Of a stretch of 64,000 nt of DNA, positions 10,355 to 47,767 are shown piece after piece. This stretch comes from Chryseobacterium gleum. GTDB taxonomy: Bacteria > Bacteroidota > Bacteroidia > Flavobacteriales_D > Crocinitomicaceae. Location of the stretch: contig CAMDFN010000005.1 of assembly GCA_945897565.1 (NCBI GenBank), positions 1 through 64,000 on the forward strand. Reading direction: 5' to 3'. Every line of letters begins with the position of its first letter. Position 1 is the stretch's first letter. Under the pieces are notes generated by a model. The model had not been told where the DNA came from. It made no database searches and worked only from the letters and a program-made list of their open reading frames with translations. Position numbers and translations under genes: made by a program.

Positions 10355-10375
10355 CGCCATTGTTTGCTTGTAAAA

Positions 10376-10391
10376 TGTGACTTAAGTCACA
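10376..10391. promoter_or_regulatory. Crp/Fnr-family operator candidate (TGTGA-N6-TCACA)
   Basis: Perfect 16-bp palindrome TGTGACTTAAGTCACA, centred about 42 bp upstream of the inferred TSS. Confidence 0.6.
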
Positions 10392-10414
10392 AAAAAAAGC
10401 CACTTGCGTGGCTT
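10391..10414 (-). terminator. Rho-independent terminator downstream of chalcone isomerase-like gene
   Basis: AAGCCAC-TTGC-GTGGCTT hairpin with A-tract on + strand (T-tract on - strand). Confidence 0.65.
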
Positions 10415-10437
10415 TATATATTTTAAAAGGTAAGATG

Positions 10438-11001
10438 CTAATCTTTGCCCAACATTTCTTCTTTGAGGCTCTCTTGAACGGGTGGCGTTCCAAACCAAAT
10501 GCCGAAGAGTGCTTTTTTGAAATCTAAACCGGGGATAGTGCCTTTGACAGCGCCATTTTTAGTAACACGAACGCCTTTACCAGGAATGTAGTCGAGGTAG
10601 ATTTTGTCGCCTTCTTCGATAGACTCACTGAAAAAACCAACGAATTTTTTGATTTCTTCTTTGCTCGCGCTGCCATGTTTTGAAGTTGCAAAACCTGCAT
10701 TGACAGACTCGATGAAACGCTCGCGCGTAACGCTGCTTGAAACAATTTTGATGTGAATGGCCATTTCGGTGTCGTCGTAGATGACTTTTTTGGCGTCTTC
10801 TGTCTTCTTCGGTACGTATAGACCTGCAACGTAGAGGTCCATGAAGTACTTTTCACGTAAACCTGCACCGTTAATGACTAGGTTTTCACCGTCTAGTTTC
10901 AATTCTGTATTGAAACTGACACCGTGGAATTTTTTAGTTTGTGCAAAAGTTATAGACGTTAGACACAATACTAGGGCTAGCAAGTAAGTTTTCCTTTTCA
11001 T
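10438..11001 (-). CDS. chalcone isomerase family protein
   Basis: Signal peptide; 'LVINGAGLREKYFMDLYVAGLYVPKKTEDAKKVI...DEE..FWFGTPPVQESLKEEMLG'-type pattern. Confidence 0.8.
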   Translation of the reverse strand: MKRKTYLLALVLCLTSITFAQTKKFHGVSFNTELKLDGENLVINGAGLREKYFMDLYVAGLYVPKKTEDAKKVIYDDTEMAIHIKIVSSSVTRERFIESVNAGFATSKHGSASKEEIKKFVGFFSESIEEGDKIYLDYIPGKGVRVTKNGAVKGTIPGLDFKKALFGIWFGTPPVQESLKEEMLGKD

Positions 11002-11049
11002 GGTTAATTATTAAATTAATTTTTGATGAAAATAACAATTATTTATGAA

Positions 11050-12273
11050 TTAATCCTCCCAAAAGTCTGGATTTGAATTTTCGTCCAATAATTTTTGCCA
11101 GTTGTAATTGGGGTCATCTACGTCAAACAATATGGCTTTGTATTCGCCTTCAGAGATTTCATAGCGCAAGACATCTTCTCCGGTGTAGGCTTCTATGGCG
11201 TCCAGAAGCGGAAGTTCATCTTTGCTACAAAAGGAAAGTGCTTGCCCAAGTGCATTGCCCCTACCCGTTCGACCGCAACGGTGCACGTAGTTTTCAGGGT
11301 TGTCTGGCAAATCATAATTGATGACGTATTCCATGTTGGGAATATCGATGCCTCGCGCCGAAACATCGGTGGTGATGAGCACTTGGTTTTTAACTTCGCG
11401 AAAACGTTCCAAGAGCGCAAATCTTTCATTTTGAGGTACGCCTCCATGCAAGGCCTCGGCATGCACACCCGCGCGTTCGAGTGCTTTCACTACGCGTTCT
11501 ACACGCACTTTGGTGCGTGCAAAAACAAGAAAGCGCGCCTCGGGGTATTCACCGATCATGTTTTCCAAGAAAAACCGTTTGTCGTCCATTTCAATGAAAG
11601 CAACGGCGTGCTGAACATTCTTAGAAACCGGGTTTTGAGGAGACAACTGAATGCGGATGGCCGAGCGCACGACGTCATAAGCCAAAGACTTGATTTTTTT
11701 ATCGATGGTGGCGGTAAAAAACAAGGTTTGGTGCTTGGCAGGTATCTTTTTGATAATGTCTTGGATGTCTTTGTTGAAGCCGAGGTCGAGCATGAGGTCG
11801 GCTTCGTCTAGCACAAGTGTGTGCACACCAGATACATCTAAGTGGCCCTGGGAAATGAGGTCAAACATACGGCCTGGGGTAGCGATGAGCACCTCAGCGC
11901 CTACCTGCAGTTGCTTGATTTGCGCCTCTTGCTCTACACCGCCATACAAACCAATGACTTTTACTTTGGTTTGGGCGCCTATTTGCTCAAATACACCCGT
12001 AATTTGTTGGGCAAGTTCACGGGTTGGCACCAAAACAATACAGCGGATTTGAATGGAGTTGGTGGCGTTTTTTTTATACTTCAGTAATTTGTTAAGCACG
12101 GGAATGACAAACGCGGCGGTCTTGCCGGTTCCGGTCTGGGCCACGGCCATGACATCTTCGCCATCCAAGATATGTTTTATGGCACGGTATTGGATGTCGG
12201 TCGGGCGTCTGAAACCGAGCACTTCTAGTTGGTCCTTAATTTTTTGATCAATATGGTAGTCTTCGAATTTCAT
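11050..12273 (-). CDS. DEAD/DEAH box RNA helicase
   Basis: AQTGTGKTAAF, PTRELAQQ, TPGR, LVLDEADLML, TATIDKKIK, TTDVSARGIDIP, YVHRCGRTGR motifs. Confidence 0.97.
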   Translation of the reverse strand: MKFEDYHIDQKIKDQLEVLGFRRPTDIQYRAIKHILDGEDVMAVAQTGTGKTAAFVIPVLNKLLKYKKNATNSIQIRCIVLVPTRELAQQITGVFEQIGAQTKVKVIGLYGGVEQEAQIKQLQVGAEVLIATPGRMFDLISQGHLDVSGVHTLVLDEADLMLDLGFNKDIQDIIKKIPAKHQTLFFTATIDKKIKSLAYDVVRSAIRIQLSPQNPVSKNVQHAVAFIEMDDKRFFLENMIGEYPEARFLVFARTKVRVERVVKALERAGVHAEALHGGVPQNERFALLERFREVKNQVLITTDVSARGIDIPNMEYVINYDLPDNPENYVHRCGRTGRGNALGQALSFCSKDELPLLDAIEAYTGEDVLRYEISEGEYKAILFDVDDPNYNWQKLLDENSNPDFWED

Positions 12274-12355: not shown

Positions 12356-14053
12356 ATGAAAATTACTTTATGCTTCACGTTTATCCTCCTCGGATCTACA
12401 CTTTTTGCCAACGAACCGCTCACGGTCAAAGGGCCACTCACCGGTGTAACGGTTTACATGCAAGGGGCGCAGCTCCAACACAAAGCCAACTACACTATTA
12501 AAGCAGGCGTCAGCGAAGTCATCGTAGAAGGTATCTCGCCGCAAATTTCACCAAGCACAATCCAGGTAAAAGCCACGGGCGCTGTAGTAATCCTCGATTC
12601 TAAATACGAATTTTACTACCCGCAACCATCCGTTAGCGTTGGTTCAGGCGAATTGCCCCCTAAAATCCGTGCCTCAATTAAAGCACTCGAAGACTCAATC
12701 ATTTTGGTGAATTTTGAACTCCGCGATATCAGTGACGAAATTGAAGTGCTGGTGGCTGCCCGCAAAATCATCATCTCAAACGGCGCCGTTAAAGGCCAAG
12801 GAAAAGTCAATGACAGTATTCAGTTATTGAAAGCAACTGTCGATTATTACACCACTAAGGTTTCCGAACTCAACAAAAAAATCAGTGCACTAGACCGTCA
12901 AAAAGTGAAAAAAAATGATGTTTTCGCAGCCCTCGATACCAGACTCAACGATCTGCGCAATTACGCCGAACAAAACAACCCCACACCAGAGATCAAAGGG
13001 ATTCCGCGCATCATCATCACCTTTATGGCCAAAGAAGCGGCAACAGGCAAAATAGAGCTCTCCTACTTGGCCTCCAATGCCGGCTGGACGCCACTTTACG
13101 ATATCCGCAGCGAAGCAGCTTCTGGTAAAATTAGCCTTACTTACAAAGCGCAGGTGCGCCAGCAAACAGGTTTGGACTGGGACGACATCAAGCTGAGCAT
13201 CTCGACCAACAACCCTTATGCCAACAAAACCAAGCCCGAACTCAGCCCGTGGTATATCGACTACCAAGAATTTAGAAGAAAATTAGAAGAAAAAGCCAAA
13301 CTCCGCTCTGATCAATATGAAAATGATGACGCTCCTTCAGTGAACACCTCCGCCATGAACATGGGTTTTATGTATTCTTCACAAAGCAATGGTTTACTCG
13401 AGGTGGATGCACTGAACGCCAATCAATTCACCACAATTGTACAACAACTCATTGCGGCCGAATTCAAAATAGACCTCAACTACAGCATTGCCTCAGACAA
13501 TCAAGTGCGCATGGTATTGGTGAAGCAAACAGAACTCAACACGAGCTTCCGCTACTATGCCGTTCCGAAACTCGACCCGGGTGTTTATCTTGTGGCGCAA
13601 ATGACCAAACTAGACGAACTCCAATTGGTTCCGGCCAAAGCCAATATCTTCTTTGACGGCAGCTACATAGGAGAAACATATCTCGACCCCACCACAATGG
13701 ATGACACACTCAATTTATCCTTAGGAAAAGACCCGAACATTGTCGTGAAACGCACCTTGCTCAAAGACCAAAGCAAAGAGCGCATCATTCAAGACAAAAA
13801 GGAACGCAATTTTGCCTATAACATTGAAGTGCGCAACCTCAAGTCTTCAGAGATAGACCTCATTATTCAAGACCAAGTACCACTCACCACCAACCCTGAA
13901 ATCACGATAGAAAAATCCAATTTAGGTAAGGGTTCGCTCGATGAAAAAACAGGGCTCATTGAATGGAAACTGAAGCTTAAGGCCAAGGAGAACCTCAACT
14001 TTGACTACGACTTCAAAGTGCGCCACCCTAAAGATAAGATCGTACAGATCTAA
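12356..14053 (+). CDS. mucoidy inhibitor MuiA family (DUF4139/DUF4140) protein
   Basis: Signal peptide; 'LTGVTVYMQGAQLQHKANYTIKAGVSEVIVEGISPQISPSTIQVKATG' and C-terminal 'YNIEVRNLKSSEIDLIIQDQVPL' typical of family. Confidence 0.85.
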   Translation: MKITLCFTFILLGSTLFANEPLTVKGPLTGVTVYMQGAQLQHKANYTIKAGVSEVIVEGISPQISPSTIQVKATGAVVILDSKYEFYYPQPSVSVGSGELPPKIRASIKALEDSIILVNFELRDISDEIEVLVAARKIIISNGAVKGQGKVNDSIQLLKATVDYYTTKVSELNKKISALDRQKVKKNDVFAALDTRLNDLRNYAEQNNPTPEIKGIPRIIITFMAKEAATGKIELSYLASNAGWTPLYDIRSEAASGKISLTYKAQVRQQTGLDWDDIKLSISTNNPYANKTKPELSPWYIDYQEFRRKLEEKAKLRSDQYENDDAPSVNTSAMNMGFMYSSQSNGLLEVDALNANQFTTIVQQLIAAEFKIDLNYSIASDNQVRMVLVKQTELNTSFRYYAVPKLDPGVYLVAQMTKLDELQLVPAKANIFFDGSYIGETYLDPTTMDDTLNLSLGKDPNIVVKRTLLKDQSKERIIQDKKERNFAYNIEVRNLKSSEIDLIIQDQVPLTTNPEITIEKSNLGKGSLDEKTGLIEWKLKLKAKENLNFDYDFKVRHPKDKIVQI

Positions 14054-14170
14054 GCTCTTCGACTCAAAAAGCAAGATGGTTTTCATGAGAATCAATTTTT
14101 TGTCAAAGAAAACGAAAAAATTGGAAGCTTACAAAAACACAGACCCACGCTTTTTTCTAACTTCGTAGGC

Positions 14171-15556
14171 ATGAATTATGTCATTGTCGATGTTGAAACT
14201 ACAGGTGGCCACACCAAAGACTCCAAAATAACAGAGTTGGCCATGTATAAACACGACGGCAAACAAGTCATTGACCACTTCCAGAGCCTCGTAGATCCCG
14301 AACAAGCCATTCCAGAATTTATTGTTCGTCTCACCGGCATCACAGACAAAATGGTGGCTGGTGCTCCTAAATTTTACGAACTCGCCAAGCAAATCATCGC
14401 GTTTTGTGAAGGCTGTACTTTTGTAGCGCACAATGTTGCTTTTGACTACGGCATGTTTAAGAGTGAATTCAAGCGCTTGGGTTATGAATTTAGAATGCCG
14501 CAACTTTGCACCGTTAGGGCTGCGCGCATTGTATTGCCTGGTTATGCATCTTACAGTTTAGGCAAAATCTGTGCAGACCTCGACATACCCAATGCTGCCC
14601 GCCACCGTGCCGACGGCGATGCAAAGGCGACTGCCCAACTCTTCACCATTTTAATTGAAACTGACAAAAACCAGCTTCAAACGTTTATCCAAGATGTACT
14701 CAATCCTAAATCAGTCCATCCGAACCTCAGTTTAGAGAGCATCGAAGAGCTACCCAATAAAACGGGTATCTACAAACTTTACAACGAGTTCAATCAGCTC
14801 ATTTACGTCGGCAAGAGCATTCATATCAAAAAGCGCATCGAACAACACCTGCGCAACCACAAAACTGCCAAAGGGCTCAAAATGATCCAAGATATTTGCA
14901 GGGTTGAATACGAACTCACAGGCTCAGAGCTCATTGCTATGTTACTTGAATCGAACCTCATCAAAGAACACAAACCCATTTACAATCGAAAACTTCGCAA
15001 AAGCTTGTTTCCTTTTGGCCTCTACGACCAACAAGATTTCGACGGTTACATCAGGCTCAAAATTGAAAGTACTGCCAAAAAAGACGAAGAACCGCTGCTT
15101 CAATTCACCTCCAAAAAGGAAGCGCAATCGTACCTAGAATACATCGCAAGCAACCTTGAATTGTGTCAAAAACTTTGCTATCTATACCCTACGCAAAGTG
15201 CTTGTTTTCATTATACCATTCAGCAATGCAAAGGCGCTTGTGTTCAAGAAGAAGACCCTGTGGCCTACAACAATCGGGTTCAGCAATACATTGACCAACT
15301 GCAGTTCAATGGAGACACTTTCTTTCTGGTAGATAAAGGCCGTAACAAAGGAGAAAAAAGCTTGGTTTGGATAGAAAATGGCATTTACAGAGGTTTTGGT
15401 TATGCCCCGTTTCATTTTCATGGCAAAGAACCACTGTACTGGGCGCGCTACATCAACGTTGAAAAAGAAAACCGCGACAGCAAAACAATTGTTCATCAGT
15501 TCATGCGCAAACCCACTGGGCAAAAACGCATCGACCTCAATTCAAGCGTTCAATGA
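14171..15556 (+). CDS. DnaQ-like 3'-5' exonuclease fused to UvrC-type GIY-YIG nuclease domain
   Basis: 'VIVDVETTGG' and 'FVAHNVAFDYGMF' exonuclease motifs; 'NKTGIYKLYNEFNQLIYVGKSIHIKKRIEQHL' GIY-YIG motif. Confidence 0.88.
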   Translation: MNYVIVDVETTGGHTKDSKITELAMYKHDGKQVIDHFQSLVDPEQAIPEFIVRLTGITDKMVAGAPKFYELAKQIIAFCEGCTFVAHNVAFDYGMFKSEFKRLGYEFRMPQLCTVRAARIVLPGYASYSLGKICADLDIPNAARHRADGDAKATAQLFTILIETDKNQLQTFIQDVLNPKSVHPNLSLESIEELPNKTGIYKLYNEFNQLIYVGKSIHIKKRIEQHLRNHKTAKGLKMIQDICRVEYELTGSELIAMLLESNLIKEHKPIYNRKLRKSLFPFGLYDQQDFDGYIRLKIESTAKKDEEPLLQFTSKKEAQSYLEYIASNLELCQKLCYLYPTQSACFHYTIQQCKGACVQEEDPVAYNNRVQQYIDQLQFNGDTFFLVDKGRNKGEKSLVWIENGIYRGFGYAPFHFHGKEPLYWARYINVEKENRDSKTIVHQFMRKPTGQKRIDLNSSVQ

Positions 15557-16344
15557 CCACTACCCCCAAAGGAAAACTCACTTTTCTGGGTTCGGGTACC
15601 TCTCAAGGTGTACCGGTCATTGCCTGTTCTTGCCCAACGTGTCAGTCTACAGATCCCAAAGACCAACGTTTGCGCGCAAGTGTGCTGCTTGAATTCCCTG
15701 AGCTCACCATCGCTATAGATGCAGGCCCCGATTTCAGACAACAAATGCTGCGTGCAAAAGTCAAGCACCTCGACGCCATTCTGCTGACCCACGAGCACAA
15801 AGACCACATCGCAGGTCTCGACGACATCCGCGCATTCAATTACCACCTGCAAGCCGATTTCCCCATTTACTGTACACCAAAGGTAGAAATAGCGCTCAAA
15901 CGCGAATTTCACTATGCTTTTGAAGCCGAACCATATCCGGGGGTGCCCCGTTTTGAAATCCGCCACCTGGAAGTTGAGCGCTTTCAGGTGGGTAGCTATA
16001 CCATTGATGCTATTGAAGTTTGGCACCACCAAATGCAAGTATTGGGTTTTCGTTTTGGCAAGTTAGCCTACATCACAGATGCCAAAACAATTACTGCGCT
16101 TGAGAAATCTAAACTTCAAGACTTAGACATCTTGATCATCAATGCCCTGCACAAATATCCGCATCCTTCGCACTTCAATTTAGCTGAAGCGCTGGCGTTC
16201 ATCGCCGAAATCAAGCCCAAGCAAAGCTACCTCACACACATCTCGCATCTCTTTGGCTTACATGCGCAAATCAACGAAACGCTGCCCACCAATGTGCAGT
16301 TAGCCTATGACGGCCTGGTGCTCAATTTCAATTATTCAGCTTAA
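15553..16344 (+). CDS. MBL fold metallo-hydrolase (PhnP-like)
   Basis: 'FLGSGTSQGVPVIACSCPTCQS', 'LTHEHKDHIAGLDDIR'. Confidence 0.9.
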   Translation: MTTTPKGKLTFLGSGTSQGVPVIACSCPTCQSTDPKDQRLRASVLLEFPELTIAIDAGPDFRQQMLRAKVKHLDAILLTHEHKDHIAGLDDIRAFNYHLQADFPIYCTPKVEIALKREFHYAFEAEPYPGVPRFEIRHLEVERFQVGSYTIDAIEVWHHQMQVLGFRFGKLAYITDAKTITALEKSKLQDLDILIINALHKYPHPSHFNLAEALAFIAEIKPKQSYLTHISHLFGLHAQINETLPTNVQLAYDGLVLNFNYSA

Positions 16345-16353
16345 TTTTACGGC

Positions 16354-17187
16354 ATGTCTAAACACGACTTAATTGATATCGAGGCACTCATCAAAAGCAA
16401 AAACCCACGTTTGCTCAAGTGGCTACCGCGCTTTGTCATTTCATTCTTGAAACGCAAACTTCACCAAGAAGAAATCAATTCGTTTTTGACAGCCTACGGT
16501 CATCTCCAAGACCACGCATTTTGCGAGGCCATCATCGACTATTTTGAAATTGATATTGAAATTCATGGCCTAGAAAATATCCCTGAGACCGGCGGGGCTA
16601 TTCTCGCCTTGAACCACCCGCTTGGTGGCATGGACGGTGTTGCGCTCATTCATGCGCTCAGAAACAAGCGTCCTGATGTCGCATTGATAGTCAATGACAT
16701 ACTGCTCAATATCAAGCAACTCTCTCATTTATTTGTGGGTATCAATAAATTTGGGCGCAACGACGGTGAGGTGCGGCAAAATATCCGCAGCGCCTTTGAA
16801 AAAGAACAAGCCGTGATTATTTTCCCTGCGGGAATGGTGACGCGCATTCATTACGGTCAAATTATTGAAGCCGAATGGAAAAAAACGTTTGTCAGCTACG
16901 CCCGCCAGCTGCAGCGTCCGATTGTCCCCATTTATATCGATGGGCGCTTGTCCAATGCATTTTACCGCGTCAATCGCTGGCGCAAACGCATTGGCATCAA
17001 AGCGAATATCGAGATGTTCTTGCTTGTAGACGAAATGTATAAGCAAAAAAAAGGCAAGATCACTTTTGTGATCGGCGCAGCCCTCAACCCACAACAACTT
17101 CCAACAGACCTCAACGACTACGCCGCCGCCAATTGGATAAAAAATCATGTGTATAGCCTAAAACCAACCGATGAAAACAATCATTGA
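16354..17187 (+). CDS. 1-acyl-sn-glycerol-3-phosphate acyltransferase-like O-acyltransferase (GlsA-like)
   Basis: 'ALNHPLGGMDGVAL' (NHPxxxxD) and 'IIFPAGM' motifs; overlaps the downstream GNAT gene by 17 bp. Confidence 0.8.
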   Translation: MSKHDLIDIEALIKSKNPRLLKWLPRFVISFLKRKLHQEEINSFLTAYGHLQDHAFCEAIIDYFEIDIEIHGLENIPETGGAILALNHPLGGMDGVALIHALRNKRPDVALIVNDILLNIKQLSHLFVGINKFGRNDGEVRQNIRSAFEKEQAVIIFPAGMVTRIHYGQIIEAEWKKTFVSYARQLQRPIVPIYIDGRLSNAFYRVNRWRKRIGIKANIEMFLLVDEMYKQKKGKITFVIGAALNPQQLPTDLNDYAAANWIKNHVYSLKPTDENNH

Positions 17188-46403: not shown

Positions 46404-46476
46404 GATCCTGTAGCTCAGCTGGTAGAGCAATACACTTTTAATGTATGGGCCCTGGGTTCGAATCCCAGCGGGATCA
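46404..46476 (+). tRNA. tRNA-Lys(TTT)
   Basis: Full cloverleaf: acceptor GATCCTG/CGGGATC, anticodon loop CTTTTAA, T arm CTGGG-TTCGAAT-CCCAG. Confidence 0.97.
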
Positions 46477-46477
46477 C
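46461..46477 (+). repeat. 17-bp direct repeat copy 1 (tRNA-Lys 3' end; candidate att core)
   Basis: AATCCCAGCGGGATCAC, identical to 46624-46640. Confidence 0.85.
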
Positions 46478-46484
46478 TCTGATC

Positions 46485-46514
46485 AAAGCACCTCGAATGA
46501 GGTGCTTTTTTTGT
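46485..46514 (+). terminator. Rho-independent terminator after tRNA-Lys
   Basis: AAAGCACCTC-GAAT-GAGGTGCTTT followed by T run. Confidence 0.8.
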
Positions 46515-46623
46515 TTAATGGCGTGAATAATTTATTTTTCAAAGTCATGAAACAAAAAAAGTAATTCAATTTGAAAAATTGAATGTGCTTTGATCCACTG
46601 CACGTCGATCCAATGGGATCTTT

Positions 46624-46640
46624 AATCCCAGCGGGATCAC
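46624..46640 (+). repeat. 17-bp direct repeat copy 2 (duplicated tRNA-Lys 3' end; candidate att core)
   Basis: AATCCCAGCGGGATCAC, exact copy 163 bp downstream of copy 1. Confidence 0.85.
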
Positions 46641-46669
46641 AGAGACGAAAGTCAAAAGACATCAAAGTC

Positions 46670-46705
46670 ACTCAAGTTACAATACTAGAGTGGCTTTTTT
46701 GTTTT
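46670..46705 (+). terminator. second terminator-like hairpin after duplicated tRNA 3' end
   Basis: GTCACTC ... GAGTGGC (one G-T wobble) followed by TTTTTTGTTTTT. Confidence 0.45.
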
Positions 46706-46708
46706 TAG

Positions 46709-46942
46709 GCAAATCATATCGAAAAATTCCCCTTCAAAGATTGCAAGTTTGAAAAGGTTAAACAGAATATAAAGTATTTAACCGAAGAAGAATATATTTC
46801 AATAGCTAATTTTGATTTTTCAAAGGCCGATGAACGTATTCAAAGAACAGCAGACTGTTTTCTATTTGCTTGTAATACTGGTTTAGCAATTTCAGATTTG
46901 AGGTCATTTAATAAGTCCAATCTGGAAAGGGATAAAGATGAC
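46709..46942 (+). pseudogene. truncated tyrosine recombinase/integrase fragment
   Basis: In-frame ANHIEKFPFKDCKFEKVKQNIKYLTEEEYISIANFDFSKADERIQRTADCFLFACNTGLAISDLRSFNKSNLERDKDD resembles the 'LTEEEL...R..DLFLFSCYTGLRFSDL' core of Bacteroidota integrases; no N-terminus and no catalytic C-terminus. Confidence 0.75.
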
Positions 46943-47767
46943 ATCCCCTCCAAACAAGGCGGCGCTAGTTTTTATCAAACCGAAATTAGTGTTCCCGCCT
47001 TTGAATTCAAATGGCACTACCATCCAGAATTTGAATTGACGTATATCCTCAAAGGCAATGGCTACCGGGTAGTTGGCAATTCGCAGGAACAATTTTCTAC
47101 TGGTGACCTCGTCTTGTTGGGTAGCAAGCTCCCACACACTTGGTGGGGAAAAAATGAAGACGGCAGTCCTTCGCAAGCAATTGTCATTCAATTTTCAAGC
47201 GCATTCATCGAACCATTTATAAAGTTGAATGAAGGGCAGGCAATCAAAGAATTGTTGGAGAAATCTGCAAACGGGCTGCGTTTTGAGTCGGATGCTTTGT
47301 TCGTGCAAAAACTCCGCTCACTTGGCCAAACCAAAGAACTAGAAAGCGTCCTAGCGCTTTTATCCTTGCTCCAAGATATGACCGCAAAACAAGCAAGCAT
47401 CTTGTGTGCAGATGCCTATCACAACGTTATCTCCAAAAAGTTCGAAACGCGCATCAATAAGGTTTGCACGTACATCCAAAACCATTATTCGGAGCCCATT
47501 TCACTCAAACAAGTCTCAGACCTTGTCTTTATGTCAGAAAGTAATTTTTGCAAGTTTTTCAAGAAGGCCACGAATACGACCTTTTCGGATTACCTCAACG
47601 ACCTCAGGATCAATGAAGCCTGTCACCTGCTACTCTCTTCCGAAGAAAGTGTCAGTAAAATTGCACACGATTGTGGCTTTGAGTCTTTGAGTTATTTCAA
47701 TAGGGTGTTTTTGAAGAAAAAACAGTTGACTCCGTCGGGATTTAGGAGGAGTAAGTTGTTGAATTGA
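46898..47767 (+). CDS. AraC family transcriptional regulator (5' end fused to integrase remnant)
   Basis: Cupin part 'FKWHYHPEFELTYILKGNGYRVVGN...GDLVLLGSKLPHTW'; HTH part 'ISLKQVSDLVFMSESNFCKFFKKATNTTFSDYLNDLRINEACHLL...ISKIAHDCGFESLSYFNRVF'-type; TTG start at 46898 lies in the integrase-derived part. Confidence 0.85.
   Translation: MRSFNKSNLERDKDDIPSKQGGASFYQTEISVPAFEFKWHYHPEFELTYILKGNGYRVVGNSQEQFSTGDLVLLGSKLPHTWWGKNEDGSPSQAIVIQFSSAFIEPFIKLNEGQAIKELLEKSANGLRFESDALFVQKLRSLGQTKELESVLALLSLLQDMTAKQASILCADAYHNVISKKFETRINKVCTYIQNHYSEPISLKQVSDLVFMSESNFCKFFKKATNTTFSDYLNDLRINEACHLLLSSEESVSKIAHDCGFESLSYFNRVFLKKKQLTPSGFRRSKLLN

Follow-up and report, generated by a model that had tools for sequence, protein, structure and literature searches.

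Duplicated 3′ end of tRNA-Lys

The window analysed here, a stretch of 64,000 nucleotides from a genome of the family Crocinitomicaceae, contains the 3′ end of a tRNA-Lys gene twice in close succession, which raises the question of what lies between the two copies and how it came there. The reading that we favour, with a probability of roughly 60%, is that two insertions are stacked at this gene: an intact, non-autonomous folded unit used by a recombinase acting in trans and, beyond it, the remains of an integrase island.

The tRNA-Lys(TTT) gene was located by ARAGORN at 46404–46477 and matches Rfam family RF00005 (E 6.5e-16). It ends in the 17-mer AATCCCAGCGGGATCAC at 46461–46477, which recurs exactly at 46624–46640, as the initial annotation had reported. 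No third copy is present at up to two mismatches (0.01 expected), the whole 2.24-Mb genome holds only these two, and past the 17 bp the match is weak (82% over 28 nt). The terminator-like hairpin described after each copy is clear at copy 1, an intrinsic terminator with its stem at 46485–46508, and looser at copy 2, where a hairpin with a T run, AAAGTCACTC...GAGTGGCTTTTTTG, was spotted by eye at about 46663–46700; its loop is too long for the terminator scan. The 11-bp inverted repeat and the palindrome noted earlier between the copies are also present, and they prove to be two arms of a conserved fold. The features up to copy 2 are as follows.

46404–46477, + strand: tRNA-Lys(TTT), the target gene, whose last 17 nt (46461–46477) are copy 1; ARAGORN, Rfam RF00005
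46478–46623, + strand: proposed non-coding insertion unit, class A; 146 bp between the copies, 163 bp from start to start
46481–46491, + strand: helix P1, left arm GATCAAAGCAC, which doubles as 5′ side of the new terminator of the tRNA; P1 covariation
46485–46512, + strand: intrinsic terminator for the tRNA transcript, carried by the unit; terminator scan
46504–46561, + strand: long hairpin P3, a T-tract pairing with a downstream A-tract; single-stranded DNA fold, inverted repeat I1
46563–46583, + strand: hairpin P4, the palindrome; sequence and single-stranded DNA fold
46585–46595, + strand: right arm of helix P1, GTGCTTTGATC; inverted repeat, covariation
46596–46607, + strand: conserved unpaired 12-nt segment CACTGCACGTCG, the class A signature; nearly invariant across tRNAs and genera
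46608–46619, + strand: inverted imperfect copy of the T-stem/acceptor 3′ strand of the unit's own tRNA; matches its own tRNA better than other tRNAs
46624–46640, + strand: second copy of the tRNA 3′ end (copy 2), where the unit ends distally and meets the island

Anatomy and distribution of the unit

The unit contains no gene and follows a general plan. The tRNA 3′ end is followed by 6 nt (usually CACTCT) and by the arm GATNAAAGC, which doubles as a terminator stem; the complementary arm GCTTTNATC comes about 80–95 nt later and is followed by a 12-nt segment, which is CACTGCACGTCG in class A and other segments, such as TATGCTTGGATTGA, in class B. At tRNA-Lys this segment stands opposite the CACTCT after the tRNA. 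At the distal end the 3′ strand of the same tRNA is repeated in inverted orientation, and a short loop and AATCC come after it; AATCC often opens a further, direct repeat of the tRNA 3′ end that has another terminator behind it. The inverted and direct repeats are separated by a spacer whose length varies.

The motif GTGCTTTGATCCACTGCACGTCG turned up at other tRNA loci, and a scan of GTDB genomes with it returned 56 stretches, nearly all from Crocinitomicaceae or Flavobacteriales related to them, among them Taishania pollutisoli, which is in culture; the matches scattered in unrelated phyla were about as many as expected by chance (7–8 by our own estimate). In the genus of the window and in Taishania, wherever a tRNA gene stands close ahead of the first motif copy, the spacing is 107–128 nt, and the gene may be one for Val, Lys, Arg (TCT, CCG, ACG, TCG) or Leu. 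Units also follow Met, Phe and Ser tRNA genes, and two copies follow tmRNA. A structure (covariance) model, R1, was built from 15 units; the unit at tRNA-Lys, itself a member of the model, matches it at G000:C5:46461-46627 (E 1.4e-27), G000 being the genome of the window. Of 249 genomes from the order, 95 match the model, some of them up to 10 times; these span 11 families and 35 of 64 genera. In a phylum-wide sample 12 of 297 genomes matched; others did so weakly, most of these again adjoining a tRNA gene (Asp, Arg, Pro, Ser, Glu).

No Rfam family corresponds to the unit, only tRNA and tmRNA reaching the gathering score, and neither a pattern search of IMG/VR nor blastn against phage and plasmid records gave a unit match. 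A description was not found in the open-licence literature. The family thus appears to have been unnamed so far; a tRNA target, a small non-autonomous repeat and a folded attachment site are each familiar, and their combination appears to be new.

Gain, loss, stacking and cargo

In the window's genome, tRNA-Arg(TCT) has behind it, in order, a unit, a repeat of the tRNA end and the terminator ATTCAAAACACTAAGCGC..., while in a congener (G102) the gene runs directly into the terminator ATTCAAAACACCAAGCGCTTATTTGATGGGCGC, which is 90% identical to the former over 60 nt; since the tRNA 3′ sequence of the empty-site relative is slightly different, this pair reads equally as a gain or as a loss. Other congeners carry a class B unit at the same tRNA-Arg(TCT), and a second filled/empty pair occurs at tRNA-Lys (L204 and G002, 89% over 54 nt). 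Across congeners, tRNA-Lys is followed by class A, by class B, by mixed stacks in which older distal arms lie beyond newer units, by islands, or by nothing. The displaced tRNA ends keep their own, different old terminators downstream, and stacks and tandem units occur with a period near 165 bp. Taken together, the filled and empty sites, the displaced ends with their old terminators and the stacked arrays show units that come and go at the tRNA 3′ end, as judged from the compared genomes.

Comparing this locus among relatives, as the initial annotation had proposed, thus yields empty sites, other unit classes or integrase islands; the downstream copy is neither a fixture of all relatives regardless of insertion nor confined to a clade whose tRNA-Lys is free of integrase elements. 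The suggestion of tandem att sites from successive integrations comes close to what these relatives present. Near-identical class B units were seen at tRNA-Arg(ACG) and tRNA-Arg(TCG) of the window's own genome (G000 L152 and L154), which suggests a recent move between the two tRNAs.

At some loci kilobases of cargo lie between the tRNA and the distal arm. In one congener (L227 3040-7136, G062:C10) 4.2 kb between tRNA-Lys and the distal arm encode two CHU_C secreted proteins, one with PKD domains, in a cargo-like position, and similar secreted-protein genes lie ahead of the distal arms at L030, L228 and L207. Such copies, the ends resembling terminal inverted repeats and the fossil arrays would suit an origin of the unit, in the manner of a MITE, by trimming of a larger autonomous element down to its two ends, the complete element having an integrase between those same ends. 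That origin, which differs from the favoured reading in this respect only and is not exclusive of it, we consider possible at somewhat less than even odds: no copy containing an integrase was found among the loci examined, and none turned up in IMG/VR by pattern or in phage and plasmid records by blastn.

Passive tandem duplication of the tRNA 3′ end and its terminator, without any recombinase, would account for the loci that are pure tandem arrays; it cannot yield a filled/empty pair, a tRNA copy in inverted orientation or end motifs that tmRNA and unrelated tRNAs have in common, and is very unlikely.

Fold and covariation

The region at tRNA-Lys folds far better than chance, both as single-stranded DNA (z −6.7) and as RNA (z −7.1). 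Over 37 units the mean z of the single-stranded DNA fold is −6.9, P1 is formed in 32 of the 37 and a four-way junction is usual. The tRNA-sense (upper) strand is stabler than its complement in 39 of 41 units as DNA and in 38 of 41 as RNA. The mismatches seen within helices, G-T (16) against A-C (3) and A-G (21) against C-T (2), are ones that the tRNA-sense strand tolerates. Given this strand-biased stability and these mismatches, selection appears to act on a single strand, DNA or RNA.

The P1 arms covary. The 19 distinct pairs have 152 variable positions, of which 141 are complementary (99 ± 5 after shuffling, maximum 120 in 20000); counted on the alignment, 93.9% are paired (slid controls 37–46%), with 25 double changes (6.8 ± 2.3 shuffled), and RNAalifold recovered the P1 helix unaided. 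The match of the inverted copy to its own tRNA exceeds that to other tRNAs by a margin reached in 0 of 20000 shuffles. The covariation and own-tRNA tests are both inflated by the relatedness of the sequences, but every one of the four complementary states is found at the variable position (G 6, A 6, C 4, T 1), with 2 mismatches.

The strand-biased fold, the excess of G-T over A-C, the strong covariation and the RNA fold z are also what would be expected of a structured RNA, encoded by the host or by an element, that reads the 3′ end of tRNA or tmRNA: a four-way junction on read-through transcripts whose inverted copy pairs with the tRNA 3′ end, for instance in control of maturation, the copies of the tRNA end arising by local tandem duplication. 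A structured RNA would give covariation and strand bias equally well, which counts against a folded-DNA reading. The strong terminator ahead of the distal half and the turnover at each tRNA, with patchy occupancy between congeners and unit classes replacing each other at the same tRNA, speak against the RNA, as do the displaced copies with different old terminators and the lack of an Rfam family. We therefore regard it as unlikely, the folded insertion unit remaining the preferred reading. If the unit does act as RNA, it would be an RNA family so far missing from the catalogues, widespread and associated with the 3′ ends of tRNA and tmRNA.

Remains of an integrase island

To the right of copy 2 lie three further features.

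46641–46721, + strand: island end on the integrase side, including a terminator-like hairpin; identity to the island of congener G008
46709–46903, + strand: tyrosine-recombinase remnant of about 64 codons, its 5′ part deleted and no start codon left
46898–47767, + strand: ORF of an AraC-type regulator, fused in frame to the integrase remnant; homologues

BLAST of the DNA beyond copy 2 gave a single strong match: positions 46643–46721 are 97.5% identical over 79 nt to L031:4393-4471, the integrase end of a tRNA-Lys island in G008, where the matching DNA comes after a masked tRNA-Lys locus and precedes an intact PF00589 integrase of 427 aa (L031:4648-5931, PF00589 E 3.6e-16). The remnant aligns with residues about 207–268 of this integrase (BLASTP 42% over 64 aa, E 3e-20); searches of Pfam (E 0.16), NCBIfam and PDB with the short fragment alone were uninformative. 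Homologues of the AraC-type regulator start with MKALLEDIPSKQGG, and the window keeps DIPSKQGG onward, the shared part running from about 46940. In the integrase–AraC fusion as a whole (46709–47767) the regulator's own start codon and upstream DNA are gone. Three relatives have about 8–10 kb of ordinary genes between tRNA-Lys and the araC gene; therefore a deletion is taken to have fused the integrase remnant to araC. As in an island integrated at a tRNA by a tyrosine recombinase, the integrase lies next to the att site, and of the two island ends the integrase end is the one preserved, the other having been removed with about 8–10 kb of flanking genes.

In G008 the far end of the island lies on a second contig and has a unit beyond it, so that this island sits between tRNA and unit. 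It also carries a type ISP restriction-modification system, split over two contigs (L031 7236-9036, L032 11900-13033). Islands occur at other tRNAs of the genus as well: in G077, tRNA-Val(TAC) and tRNA-Asn each have an integrase gene whose start is no more than about 200 bp away (L113 and L126).

The duplication had been read as the footprint of a tyrosine recombinase. This holds in so far as insertion is site-specific and an integrase element was once present; the element lies to the right of copy 2, not between the copies. The accompanying idea that the roughly 150 bp between them are a single island almost wholly deleted, to which the direct repeats and the nearby integrase relic had lent some appeal, retains hardly any probability and is refuted by the complete 146-bp architecture with paired ends and covarying structure, which recurs at full length after many tRNA and tmRNA genes, by the position of the relic outside the repeats and by the placement of the G008 island between tRNA and unit.

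Proposed mechanism

In the favoured reading, the unit enters at the T-stem 3′ strand of a tRNA or tmRNA gene and supplies a fresh tRNA 3′ end and terminator, the old 3′ end being pushed downstream with its old terminator, as the genome comparisons indicate. The upper strand folds into a four-way junction in which P1 joins the unit ends and the distal end carries the inverted 3′ end of its own tRNA, as covariation and complementarity show. This folded strand may be the attachment site. Its two inverted bipartite arms, some 90 nt from each other, are interrupted by 6 nt in one case and by 12 nt in the other, and by pairing they would create a substrate for a tyrosine recombinase supplied in trans, as when phage CTX and integron cassettes integrate as single strands; the unit might travel as a circle or as a single strand. 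It is the resemblance of this arrangement to the CTX attP that leads us to favour a folded single-strand attP with a trans-acting tyrosine recombinase. Separately, a conventional integrase island would once have occupied copy 2, and a deletion would then have joined the interior of its integrase gene to araC, leaving the in-frame relic.

The variable spacer between inverted and direct copies counts against this reading, since the overlap of a normal tyrosine recombinase would not allow it, and so does the lack of resemblance between the arms and dif. Among the loci examined, no recombinase consistently accompanies the unit, no copy has an integrase inside and no integrase shares the unit's ends; neither a circle nor a transposition event was observed. 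As agent, an integron integrase was rejected, no TIGR02249 match over the cut-off being present in 86 congeners; no class A site lies close to the weaker IntI-like recombinases, and on inspection their nearest "class B" matches, with 2 mismatches in L242 and L231, proved unrelated, those of L242 lying inside genes.

Roughly 30 of the 86 congeners encode recombinases of about 280–380 aa that score 100–138 bits to the integron integrase model and do not have its positions about 181–238 (for example G000:C46:3086-4078 in L241, and L231-L240). One locus of the genus (L242, G017:C1:1060000-1079999) has an IntI-like tyrosine recombinase of 277 aa at 10360–11193 followed by four repeats ACAAAACCTAAACTGCATTGAAACCCAGTTTAGCTAAAACGTT at gene boundaries (12750–16504), an integron-like cassette array.

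Three further candidates were discarded: a hammerhead-like core (CTGATGA) in the trailer, where the position that requires G varies and covaries; tRNA-primed reverse transcription with a primer binding site, where the inverted copy has no complement to CCA; and a conserved att overlap at the T-loop, where loop length varies. A Tn7/CAST homing guide was also considered, on the pairing pattern.

As a wider and rather doubtful extension, these units may represent, throughout the phylum, a class of integrative elements without genes, about 165 nt long, which travel as a folded single strand. Recognition would be by structure, not sequence, and each element would adapt to its target through the inverted copy it carries of the tRNA or tmRNA 3′ end that it occupies. 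If units do insert as folded single strands, the tRNA and tmRNA genes of Bacteroidota would preserve traces of past structure-guided recombination in a setting other than integrons and filamentous phages, the tRNA gene serving as entry site. Such insertion would explain the stacked repeats and secreted-protein cargo at tRNA ends in the phylum, and would offer a short, defined substrate for asking how one recombinase serves many tRNA sequences. Whether the unit acts as DNA or as RNA, a short duplicated tRNA end is not necessarily a deleted island.

Comparison with known systems

The relic shares with the tRNA-targeting tyrosine-recombinase islands of Bacteroidota, such as that of G008, a PF00589 integrase, an island end and an att duplication, and differs in being cut down to one end and a fused fragment. 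The additive flexible genomic islands or tycheposons at tRNA genes likewise show recurring tRNA-end copies at a tRNA hot spot and stacked cargo, and are gene-bearing and of kilobase scale (PMC10872708). The unit is similar in its recurring tRNA-end copies and in stacking at the tRNA; it differs in being non-coding, structured and geneless.

Small non-autonomous repeats such as MITEs, RUP and YPAL are under 200 bp and non-coding, with inverted ends, filled and empty sites and a foldable transcript (PMC2229807). In size, inverted P1 ends, filled and empty sites (G000 and G102) and foldability the unit resembles them, whereas it targets and rebuilds a tRNA or tmRNA 3′ end and its ends differ by tRNA; no transposase or integrase partner with the unit's ends was found among the loci examined.

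Integron cassettes, with their attC sites, fold preferentially on one strand, have stems that vary by covariation, stack at a single entry point and occasionally bring cargo, all of which the unit shares. Unlike attC, it has no core RYYYAAC/GTTRRRY, its ends reading GATNAAAGC/GCTTTNATC and AATCC; the tRNA itself is the entry site, and the congeners are without an integron integrase over the cut-off.

The attP of phage CTX (attP1/attP2), used in XerCD-dependent integration of single-stranded DNA, is a 150-nt forked hairpin formed by one strand; its 11-bp arms lie about 90 bp from each other and have centres of 12 nt and 6–7 nt (PMC3089051). The arms of the unit are tRNA 3′ ends and GATNAAAGC, not the dif-like XerC/XerD arms; it carries no phage genes, is absent from IMG/VR and phage records as searched, and targets tRNA and tmRNA where CTX targets dif. 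What the two have in common is the arrangement itself: inverted bipartite sites with centres of 12 and 6 nt, about 90 nt apart, in a single-strand hairpin of about 150 nt.
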